In this document: in pieces, positions 2,184-33,823 of the stretch
Layout: every line of letters begins with the position of its first letter
How positions within the stretch are numbered: the first letter of the stretch is position 1
Origin: a virus
Direction: 5' to 3' (one strand)
IMG/VR virus record: IMGVR_UViG_3300031957_001692
Span: 1-34,354 of that record
Length of the DNA: 34,354 nucleotides
Translations under genes and position numbers: made by a program
The notes under the pieces: model-generated
Seen by the model: the letters and a program-made list of their open reading frames with translations, nothing else
What the model was told of the DNA's origin: nothing
The model's database searches: none

Positions 2184-3609
2184 TCAATTAGAAGAAATGT
2201 CAGGATCTGCAACAGAGACTTATTCAGAGGTTTTGGCTCAAGTCTGTTTAGCATACTCTATTGCAGAAAATAAAGCACTGACTTTGAAGGAGTTAGTCAG
2301 TGGCAATGAACTAAACAAAAAAGTCATTGATAAAATTAACAGGTATATTGTTACTCCCTCTTCTGTAAATCTTGTCGGTAAACGTATTACTGGAAGGTCA
2401 GTTTCTTATTCTGGTTTCGTTACCTATGTTAAGGGTAATGTGAGTGGAAAACTAAATTGGGTTGATGCTCAAGGAAGAAATATGCAAGAAGTTAAAAGAA
2501 GATTTAAAATTAATTCTCGACATAAAGTTTTTAATGATAAATTATTTGATACTAGATTAACTGCAGATAATCCATATACAGCATTCGTGAAATCTGTTGG
2601 CAGTGGTGCTAAAACTGATAAGTGGAATCCTGCTGATATTTGGGCGATGAATTTGAATGGTATAAGAGCACTTAATAAGTTAAACAAAAGAGTTATGGGT
2701 AGAAGTAAAGTATCGGTGGAGTATTGTAATCAATTTTTAGCCACGCAATTTGATGAAGGAAACATTATTCCAATCTCATTGAAGAAACCACAATCATCTC
2801 CGCATATTGATATTGTCAATAGTAATCAATATTTTAGTAGAGTTTCATTGAATGGAACTAACAATCCAACCATTGAATATACTTATGGAAACAAAGACGT
2901 AAAAATAAACTTTACAATAGAAACTGTTGAACTTGCAAAAGGTCAAAAAGCATCGACTGCTAGAAGAAATCCTGATGCTGCTAGAGGTAAAGTCGTTCCT
3001 GGATCACAAAAGCATATTCGATTGAAGTATCACGTTGATAATAAAAAAATGGAACTTGAATATTCTCAAACTGGAAAAGGTATGAATTATGCTGCAGCAA
3101 AGATGGGTAACATCGGTGCAGATAATTTTCAAACAATTATAAATCAAACTGCTGGTTCTGGTGTTAGAAAGTTAAATCAAATACAACGTAAATATTCTGA
3201 TATTGATATAAAAACTAGTCCTTGGTTCAATGGTAAACAACTTAAAGTAATAAAAGCAAGAAACCAAGAACAATTAATTGAACCACATATGGACAGGATT
3301 GCTGAATATGTTGGTGAAATGTGGAAAGAAATAAATGGAACTAATTTTGATCCATCCGAAAGGTCTATGAATAGTGCATCGGCAATTTGGAGTAAAGCAA
3401 GAGCTGGAGAAATGGGAATGTCAATCTCTGCTATACCTAATGATAGAGTTAGAAAAAGAGTAATTGAAAATTTATATCAAGCAGCTGCCTCTATTAGTTA
3501 CGTTACTGGATTGAATAAAGAAGAGAGAGCACTGGAAGAGAATATGTCGTCTCCCATAGGAACTAGATCAGTTTCTTTTAATGCTAGTGTCTATGTCAAG
3601 GTGTATTAA
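2176..3609 (+). CDS. Unidentified phage protein, possibly virion- or nuclease-related
   Basis: 477 aa from the ATG at 2176. A GTG at 2170 and an ATG at 2197 are alternative in-frame starts. The start is uncertain because the late motif lies only 7 bases upstream. No family is firmly recognised. The segment TDKWNPADIWAMNLNG (around residues 150-165) followed by NIIPISLKKPQSS (around 192-204) resembles the D...(x)K spacing of PD-(D/E)XK nucleases, but this is weak. The middle is rich in Lys and Asn. The gene is visibly richer in A/T at third codon positions than gp41 or the structural genes after it, which suggests a separate origin. The late promoter suggests late, possibly virion, expression. 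Confidence 0.8.
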   Translation: MSSQLEEMSGSATETYSEVLAQVCLAYSIAENKALTLKELVSGNELNKKVIDKINRYIVTPSSVNLVGKRITGRSVSYSGFVTYVKGNVSGKLNWVDAQGRNMQEVKRRFKINSRHKVFNDKLFDTRLTADNPYTAFVKSVGSGAKTDKWNPADIWAMNLNGIRALNKLNKRVMGRSKVSVEYCNQFLATQFDEGNIIPISLKKPQSSPHIDIVNSNQYFSRVSLNGTNNPTIEYTYGNKDVKINFTIETVELAKGQKASTARRNPDAARGKVVPGSQKHIRLKYHVDNKKMELEYSQTGKGMNYAAAKMGNIGADNFQTIINQTAGSGVRKLNQIQRKYSDIDIKTSPWFNGKQLKVIKARNQEQLIEPHMDRIAEYVGEMWKEINGTNFDPSERSMNSASAIWSKARAGEMGMSISAIPNDRVRKRVIENLYQAAASISYVTGLNKEERALEENMSSPIGTRSVSFNASVYVKVY

Positions 3610-14551: not shown

Positions 14552-14623
14552 GGGCTCATAGTTAAACGGATATAACTACGCTCTTCTAAAGCGTTATTCT
14601 AGGTTCGATTCCTAGTGAGCCTG
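14552..14623 (+). tRNA. tRNA-Arg (anticodon TCT)
   Basis: A full cloverleaf can be drawn. The acceptor stem is 14552-14558 with 14616-14622. The D stem is GTTA/TAAC at 14561-14576. The anticodon stem is ACGCT/AGCGT at 14578-14594, with loop CTTCTAA and anticodon TCT at 14585-14587. The variable loop has 4 bases. The T stem is CTAGG/CCTAG with loop TTCGATT (14599-14615). The discriminator base is G at 14623, and CCA is not encoded. It reads AGA, a codon the phage uses often and which is rarer in higher-GC Synechococcus hosts. That preference is the usual explanation for phage tRNAs. Confidence 0.93.
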
Positions 14624-31532: not shown

Positions 31533-31828
31533 CACAACCACAACCAATTCAGGGACATCCATACCTTGGACCTGATCAAACGTATGAAAAAGCACGTCGC
31601 GACCGACTTGCTGATGTGATTGGTGAGTATCTTAATGATGAGAATTGTGATTCTCGTCAAATATATGAAGAGATTCTTACCGAAATCAATGATTGGAATG
31701 ACTATCACAACAGGTTTGCGAGGAAAAGTGAACAACTTCGTGAGTTCATGATGGGTAGTACGGTCTTTAATCTTGATGATATGGCTAAAGATTATTCGGA
31801 TATCCTCACGGGTCTTGACAACTCATGA
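31529..31828 (+). CDS. Small acidic hypothetical protein
   Basis: 99 aa (MTQPQPIQGHPYLGPDQTYE and onward). It is Asp/Glu/Tyr-rich and mainly helical, of a type common in cyanophages between operons. It has no recognised domain. Its start overlaps the 55-aa gene (ATGA). A TTGACA -35 box lies within its last codons (31815-31820), so a promoter for the downstream beta-barrel gene overlaps its 3' end. Confidence 0.75.
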   Translation: MTQPQPIQGHPYLGPDQTYEKARRDRLADVIGEYLNDENCDSRQIYEEILTEINDWNDYHNRFARKSEQLREFMMGSTVFNLDDMAKDYSDILTGLDNS

Positions 31829-31842
31829 GATTCAGGTATACT
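31815..31842 (+). promoter_or_regulatory. Composite promoter, sigma-70 part
   Basis: TTGACA at 31815-31820 inside the preceding gene, a 16-base spacer, then TATACT at 31837-31842. The -10 shares its last two bases with the late motif CTAAATA (31841-31847), so early and late start sites would be only a few bases apart. Confidence 0.7.
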
Positions 31843-31847
31843 AAATA
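31841..31847 (+). promoter_or_regulatory. T4-type late promoter motif CTAAATA overlapping a sigma-70 -10
   Basis: CTAAATA directly adjoins TATAC in TATACTAAATA. The same layout recurs upstream of psbA (TATTATAAATA). It would add late transcription of the beta-barrel gene through a leader of about 165 bases. Confidence 0.6.
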
Positions 31848-31874
31848 ACTGGACGTGACTACTGTTGCGTTTTA

Positions 31875-31936
31875 CAACAAGTTGAAGGTGCCTCAATTAA
31901 TCGCATCTCCTTGTTGACAGCATCCCCTAAAGGTGC
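31875..31936 (+). promoter_or_regulatory. Alternating stem-loops in the beta-barrel gene leader
   Basis: CAACAAG (31875-31881) pairs with CTTGTTG (31910-31916), enclosing GGTGC (31887-31891) with GCATC (31903-31907). A second GCATC (31920-31924) pairs with a second GGTGC (31932-31936). Each GGTGC can pair with either GCATC, so two mutually exclusive folds are possible, as in attenuators or riboswitches. No ligand family is recognised. Confidence 0.45.
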
Positions 31937-31942
31937 TAAACT
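31914..31942 (+). promoter_or_regulatory. Internal sigma-70-type promoter in the leader
   Basis: TTGACA at 31914-31919, a 17-base spacer, then TAAACT at 31937-31942. The spacer is exactly the second stem-loop (GCATC...GGTGC). It would yield a shorter leader of about 70 bases that keeps only the later hairpins. Confidence 0.55.
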
Positions 31943-31951
31943 AATTTCAAC

Positions 31952-31995
31952 GAGAGCAAGTCGAGCTCTCTCTCATCCGTGGGTTTAACTCCACG
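31952..31995 (+). promoter_or_regulatory. Two further leader hairpins before the beta-barrel gene
   Basis: GAGAGC (31952-31957) pairs with GCTCTC (31965-31970) around a seven-base loop. CGTGG (31978-31982) pairs with CCACG (31991-31995), and one G-U pair can extend it. They lie at the 5' end of a transcript from the 31914 promoter and could protect the mRNA. A TAAGG Shine-Dalgarno sequence follows before the ATG at 32017. Confidence 0.55.
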
Positions 31996-32016
31996 AGACA
32001 AATCTAAGGTACAAAA

Positions 32017-32388
32017 ATGTTTAAATCTGTATTCGCAGCATCTGCTGCTCTTTCACTCTCTGCTGGCGCTGCGTTTGCTGGCCCCTACGTTAACGTCGAG
32101 GCTAACTCAGGTTGGACTGGATCTGATTACTCTGGAACCGCAACGGACCTGCACCTGGGGTACGAAGGCGAACTCGGTGAGTCTGCTTCTTACTACGTTC
32201 AGGGCGGCGCTACTGTAGTCTCTCCTGACGGCGGCGAGAGCGACACCGTTCCTTCTGGTAAGGCAGGTCTGGGTCTTGCACTGACCGATTCCCTCGGTGC
32301 TTATGGTGAAGTCTCCTTCGTCGGTAGTGGCGATGAGGACATCGACCGTGGCTACGGTGCTAAGTTGGGTCTGAAGTACAGCTTCTGA
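32017..32388 (+). CDS. Small outer-membrane beta-barrel (porin-like) protein
   Basis: 123 aa. The signal peptide MFKSVFAASAALSLSAGAAFA has a cut site after AFA (about residue 21). The mature 102 residues alternate polar and hydrophobic side chains (YVNVEANSGW, THL-type TDLHLGYEGEL, SYYVQGGATVV, GYGAKLGLKYSF) and end in Phe, the terminal residue recognised by the BAM complex. This is about the size of an eight-stranded barrel. Codons are more GC-rich and uniform than in the neighbours, as in highly expressed host genes. It may alter host envelope permeability or receptor exposure. A TAAGG Shine-Dalgarno sequence precedes it and a strong terminator follows. Confidence 0.75.
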   Translation: MFKSVFAASAALSLSAGAAFAGPYVNVEANSGWTGSDYSGTATDLHLGYEGELGESASYYVQGGATVVSPDGGESDTVPSGKAGLGLALTDSLGAYGEVSFVGSGDEDIDRGYGAKLGLKYSF

Positions 32389-32410: not shown

Positions 32411-32437
32411 GGGGGGTCTTAGGACCCCTCTTTTTTT
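32411..32437 (+). terminator. Rho-independent terminator after the beta-barrel gene
   Basis: GGGGGGTC (32411-32418), loop TTAG, GACCCCTC (32423-32430; one G-U pair), then seven T residues (32431-32437). It ends the beta-barrel transcript; the next ORF begins with the ATG at 32438, flush against the T-run. Confidence 0.9.
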
Positions 32438-33659: not shown

Positions 33660-33702
33660 AGTCAGCAGGTTAAGGAACCAACACATTTCTTAACAAGACT
33701 TA

Positions 33703-33773
33703 ACACCCCTCAAACCAAGACCTATAGGGTGTCTAAAAACGTCTTTCATATCCTTGCCTTAGGGTGGCGAGGA
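33703..33773 (+). promoter_or_regulatory. psbA leader structures, PhotoRC-like candidate
   Basis: The leader 33661-33823 carries two hairpins. ACACCC (33703-33708) pairs with GGGTGT (33727-33732). TCCTTGCC (33751-33758) pairs with GGCGAGGA (33766-33773) around the loop TTAGGGT (one G-U). Cyanophage psbA leaders are known to hold conserved PhotoRC RNA motifs. This position and strength fit, but I cannot confirm the family by eye. Confidence 0.55.
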
Positions 33774-33823
33774 AATAGTAAAACCATCATTTCCCTGATG
33801 ATCTTACTTTTTTGTTCAAAACA

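Follow-up and report, generated by a model that had tools for sequence, protein, structure and literature searches.

Sequence comparison leads us to conclude that the leader of the cyanophage gene gp222 represents a new family of cis-acting RNAs, a putative gene-control element that has not been described. The conserved core of the leader is 44 nt long (31952-31995) and consists of two hairpins, H1 and H2, with extensive compensatory changes. This fold is conserved at the RNA level, on the coding strand, and the element is linked exclusively to the gene of a Phage_OMP family protein. The DNA analyzed here (the window), a virus record 34,354 bases long, is a fragment of a marine T4-like cyanophage genome. 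It carries a high-light-inducible gene, and its end is occupied by psbA, preceded by a PhotoRC-II RNA (33691-33786, 75.7 bits, the only match to RF01717 in the window). A tRNA gene is located at 14552-14623 (Rfam RF00005, 62 bits).

Organization of the gp222 locus

The initial annotation of this locus listed two promoters, GGTGC/GCATC elements (31887-31907 and 31920-31936), two further hairpins, a Shine-Dalgarno sequence and a terminator, all of which are present:

31815-31847, + strand: P1, predicted sigma70-like promoter, TTGACA (31815-31820)-16-TATACT (31837-31842), 11/12
Overlapping P1 (31815-31847), + strand: predicted late-type TATACTAAATA (T4-late-like) sequence motif
31853-31870, + strand: 5'-terminal hairpin of the P1 transcript, ACGTGAC-TACT-GTTGCGT, predicted fold
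31887-31907, + strand: H0 hairpin, GGTGC-CTCAATTAATC-GCATC, with a conserved 11-nt loop and a covarying stem
31914-31942, + strand: P2, predicted promoter, TTGACA-17-TAAACT, 10/12, extended -10 (TGn)
31920-31924 and 31932-31936, + strand: H0b dyad, GCATC and GGTGC, within the -35/-10 spacer of P2
31952-31970, + strand: H1 hairpin, GAGAGC, loop AAGTCGA, GCTCTC; covarying stem, GUCG of the loop nearly invariant
31971-31977, + strand: linker TCTCATC, with CAUC invariant in 96 of 96 aligned loci
31978-31995, + strand: H2 hairpin, CGTGG(G)...(T)CCACG; covarying stem, followed by an invariant AG
32006-32010, + strand: Shine-Dalgarno sequence AAGGT, 6 nt 5' of the ATG at 32017
32017-32388, + strand: Phage_OMP gene (PF24653, PHROG 417), 123 aa, signal peptide and six beta strands
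32411-32430, + strand: intrinsic terminator, GGGGGGTCTTAGGACCCCTC followed by T7

The late promoter motif is found upstream of the gene in 82 of 95 relatives, compared to 6.6 in shuffled sequences, and a terminator follows the stop codon in 91 of 94 (46 of 900 control windows), so that the Phage_OMP gene appears to be mostly an independent transcription unit. Accordingly, what had been viewed as an unusual phage accessory gene is instead a widespread, independently transcribed gene of cyanomyoviruses. A -10 box lies directly 5' of H1 in 31 of 95 relatives (7.9 in shuffles). The Shine-Dalgarno sequence is absent in 39 of 96 relatives, including nearly all leaders of the P-type (Prochlorococcus-phage type, represented by P-SSM2/P-SSM7/P-TIM68/P-RSM6), and is not sequestered in the predicted leader fold.

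Alignment of the upstream regions of many relatives reveals a distal part that varies in modules and a proximal part represented by the conserved hairpin pair. Hairpins of the GTAAC/GTTAC type that resemble the one at 31853-31870 can be recognized by eye in relatives. The GGTGC/GCATC elements had been interpreted as a nested set able to form alternative stems. The first pair indeed forms a real hairpin, H0 (arms 31887-31891 and 31903-31907, loop consensus CUCAAYUAMUC), the arms of which covary: 23 distinct arm pairs form 3.43 contiguous base pairs, compared to 2.02+-0.18 after permutation (0 of 5000). The second pair, however, lies inside P2, and although cross-pairing of H0 with H0b is possible in the window, the stem letters of the two differ in most relatives, so that the alternative pairing is not conserved. 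An inverted repeat in the P2 spacer is retained by relatives with other letters, such as CACCCC/GGGGTG and ACTACC/GGTAGT (by eye). In window-type leaders, base pairing between the H0 loop and H2 was also considered and rejected, given that cognate combinations are no better than non-cognate ones (-8.49 and -8.91, respectively; P 0.97).

Conservation and distribution of the H1-H2 fold

Both parts of the leader fold more stably than shuffled sequences, with z of -2.3 for 31949-32016 and -2.8 for 31848-31950. When 52 leaders are aligned with MAFFT without regard to structure, 89.6% of the H1/H2 cells are paired, double changes occur in 10 of the 12 pairs, and the covariation score is 0.620, compared to 0.268+-0.016 for shuffled alignments and at most 0.246 for slid ones. 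In an alignment of 96 loci, which was fitted to the covariance model, 92.2% of the cells are paired, with 339 double-change cells (116+-13 in the control) and a covariation score of 0.734 against 0.288. The shuffles ignore relatedness whereas the slides do not; the compensatory changes exceed the composition, relatedness and register controls alike, as is characteristic of a conserved structured RNA. Thus, the search for conserved pairing in relatives, which could have undermined the initial annotation, yielded strong covariation, but the structured element is the proximal H1/H2 pair rather than the nested GGTGC/GCATC set. Across the H1/H2 pairs, 111 cells are G-U and 31 are A-C, and one pair is exclusively GU or GC; this excess of G-U points to RNA of the + (coding) strand. 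Three unpaired motifs, GUCG of the H1 loop, CAUC of the linker and AG 3' of H2, are nearly or fully invariant, and the distance between H2 and the ATG is 16-28 nt in all 96 loci.

The covariance model R1, built on 52 relatives, matches the core in the window with 70 bits and finds no other convincing match there. In the relatives of P-SSM7, a second clade among the IMG/VR loci that was left out of the model building (although it drew on a few named phages of this type), the upstream sequence is long enough at 75 loci, of which 74 match; in the sole exception, the element is visible by eye, with one linker base changed. All 100 further loci match as well, a few duplicates of the training phages among them. 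One strong match is present in 15 of the 20 phage genomes searched, in each case 5' of the OMP gene. The cyanomyoviruses P-TIM40 and ACG-2014f and three podoviruses carry the OMP gene without the element, which is therefore not indispensable. The only additional match in these genomes is a weak second one in P-SSM7 (NC_015290.1, 167792-167833; 20.6 bits, E 0.005).

In gene-blind scans of IMG/VR with exact patterns, 64 of 80 and 51 of 82 matches precede the OMP gene; those that do not are chance matches without hairpins, plus one at a contig end. Full elements were detected in these scans only 5' of Phage_OMP, save for the latter case, where the contig ends. A search of plasmids found none, and a scan of genomes for cellular homologs identified a single contig, binned as a Rhodobacteraceae MAG (NZVE01000057.1), in which the OMP gene with a complete leader occupies 2932-3369. 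Its presence in this bin probably reflects cyanophage contamination.

Known cyanophage RNAs and the encoded protein

Cyanomyoviruses rank among the most abundant viruses of the sea and, to our knowledge, their known regulatory RNAs are few, namely CfrI, PhotoRC-II, manA, wcaG and glnA. A comparison of 4227 Rfam 15 families with the leaders of the window and 16 relatives reveals none that reaches the gathering score, the best match for the leader region of the window having an E of 0.62. A close parallel is PhotoRC-II (RF01717), which likewise forms the structured 5' leader of a membrane-protein gene in cyanophages. By eye, its hairpins with a short linker resemble those of the gp222 leader (UUUCAUAUCC compared to UCAUC), and a UUUCAU..CC stretch is shared with the gp222 linker. 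However, R1 does not match PhotoRC-II even with the filters off, nor does RF01717 give a hit in the gp222 leader, which is not a member of that family. The manA (RF01745) and wcaG (RF01761) RNAs are orphan cis-regulatory candidates of T4-like cyanophages (PMC2864571), but are associated with different genes and match the gp222 leader neither in sequence nor in structure. The glnA/Downstream-peptide glutamine riboswitches of cyanobacteria and cyanophages are also small cis-acting RNAs of the same virus-host system, yet give no Rfam match to the leader. A literature search found no paper describing the H1-H2 leader; the comparison covered motifs with an Rfam model, which leaves outside those of PMC2864571 that have none, such as Ocean-VI.

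The product of the ORF at 32017-32388 is a full-length member of Phage_OMP (PF24653): residues 1-123 align to positions 1-122 of the 122-position profile with 176.2 bits, above the curated cut-off of 27 bits. It is also assigned to PHROG 417, and the family appears in records as gp222, DUF680 or T4-GC 241; the family records cover the protein only, not the leader. By tblastn, the gene is detected in 460 phage records, each from a cyanophage or of marine origin. The GC content of the ORF is 55%, compared to 40% for the whole window. A profile search of PDB sequences found nothing meaningful. An AlphaFold model based on 39 relatives (pLDDT 77, low confidence at the N-terminus) shows six strands, compared to eight in OmpA and OmpX; its best structural neighbors are the OprF, OmpA, NspA, OmpW and OmpX barrels, with Z of about 10 (10.6 to OprF and 10.2 to OmpA), and the best E in a Foldseek search is 0.013. 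Family membership and the model are thus consistent with the outer-membrane barrel proposed initially, here modeled as a small OmpA/OmpX-like one.

A DUF680 gene was lost in phages evolved on Synechococcus WH8102, which the authors read as a sign of cost (PMC6224464), and a virion proteome lists a DUF680 protein (PMC9146016). In some phages, a second gene annotated as DUF680 adjoins pstS (e.g., 1942-2358 in S-8S56), and the R1 model detects no element at this gene in S-8S56. These two reports may therefore concern the paralog: whether the S-TIM4 gene of PMC6224464 is orthologous to gp222 is uncertain, and PhCOG173 of the phosphate literature may be the pstS-adjacent gene rather than gp222.

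Candidate modes of action

The function of the H1-H2 RNA is most likely to control the translation or stability of a late mRNA via a factor that reads the invariant loops. The mRNA would be made from P1 and, in some phages, also from P2, the transcript of which would start 2-3 nt before H1. A trans-acting factor, which could be the ribosome itself or an RNA-binding protein of the phage or the host, would recognize the unpaired GUCG, CAUC and AG and thereby set translation initiation and/or mRNA lifetime; the 16-28 nt between H2 and the ATG, together with the lack of a Shine-Dalgarno sequence in 39 loci, fits an effect on initiation. The outcome would be the correct dose of a membrane protein that can reduce phage fitness, a cost suggested by the loss of the DUF680 gene on WH8102 (PMC6224464). 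In P-type leaders, an upstream strand would pair around H1 at the expense of H2, providing an additional on/off step. We assign a probability of about 55% to this account as a whole, that is, a cis-acting RNA of its own family, a late mRNA, recognition in trans, dosage of the OMP and the P-type step.

The P-type step is based on a conserved stretch between the late promoter and H1, which ends with AACCCUGYG(UA)GAUG and is complementary to CAUCCGCAGGGUU of the linker and H2. The duplex energy is -14.1 kcal/mol, compared to -7.2 kcal/mol with shuffled upstream sequence; cognate strands pair better than non-cognate ones; and in 86 P-type leaders 87.7% of the cells are paired, compared to at most 47% after sliding. 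The predicted ensembles are split between two states (mean 0.56/0.40). Covariation of the alternative helix is weak (0.085 versus 0.071) because the strands hardly vary. These observations are suggestive of a helix exchange in P-type leaders, whereas in window-type leaders no excess of upstream complementarity to the linker and H2 was found (z 0.05). Hence the switch-like character originally attributed to the leader does not hold for the GGTGC/GCATC elements, and a switch-like alternative helix is seen in another clade only. Possibly, though doubtfully, the P-type leader is a phage-specific bistable switch that would sense a host or infection signal and decide on the synthesis of the outer-membrane protein, with a CGA..UCG upstream hairpin, the H1-wrapping anti-H2 helix and H2 in competition.

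Factor-mediated control has to be weighed against simpler and more specialized roles. The 5' stem-loops of the ompA mRNA shield it against 5'-end-dependent decay, and the hairpins of the late mRNA might act in the same way as passive stabilizers with no partner. H1 would start 2-3 nt from the P2 start, and other hairpins are located near the P1 start in relatives; however, the invariant GUCG, CAUC and AG are unnecessary for a passive stem, and H1 and H2 are not 5'-terminal on P1 transcripts, which makes this role unlikely. A riboswitch for a metabolite or ion, in which H1, the linker and H2 would form the aptamer and the helix swap the readout, is compatible with invariant unpaired bases between covarying stems and with the P-type pairing and split ensembles. 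Nevertheless, the element serves one gene in one virus group, with no metabolic association; its core is small, neither a Shine-Dalgarno sequence nor a terminator is gated, and the alternative helix is missing from window-type leaders, so that we consider a riboswitch improbable.

The leader might also be the target of a small RNA, encoded by host or phage, that base-pairs with the H0 loop or the GUCG loop. Conserved loops of hairpins typically serve as sites of such pairing, and the host small RNA Yfr1 reportedly acts on mRNAs of porins; yet four-base cores are short, and complementarity to the motifs taken for Yfr1 and Yfr2 is not enriched in the leader (z -0.76 and 0.07, respectively), which leaves this mechanism a low probability. 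Of the control by a metabolite, small RNA or protein envisaged initially, post-transcriptional regulation, as predicted from sequence, is well supported by the covariation, and the Yfr1/Yfr2 motifs are not. An operator at the DNA level, where the inverted repeats would bind a repressor or activator, is very improbable: H0b does lie inside the P2 spacer and H1 directly after the -10 box, but the stems change sequence freely as long as they remain paired, they contain many G-U pairs, and CAUC and AG are outside any dyad.

With its well-delimited 60 nt, the H1-H2 leader lends itself to probing and pull-down experiments with cultured phages. Protein identity falls to about 40% among relatives that share the covarying leader, and the persistent link of this RNA to one gene over such divergence suggests strong selection on the dose of a putative membrane protein of unexplained role.
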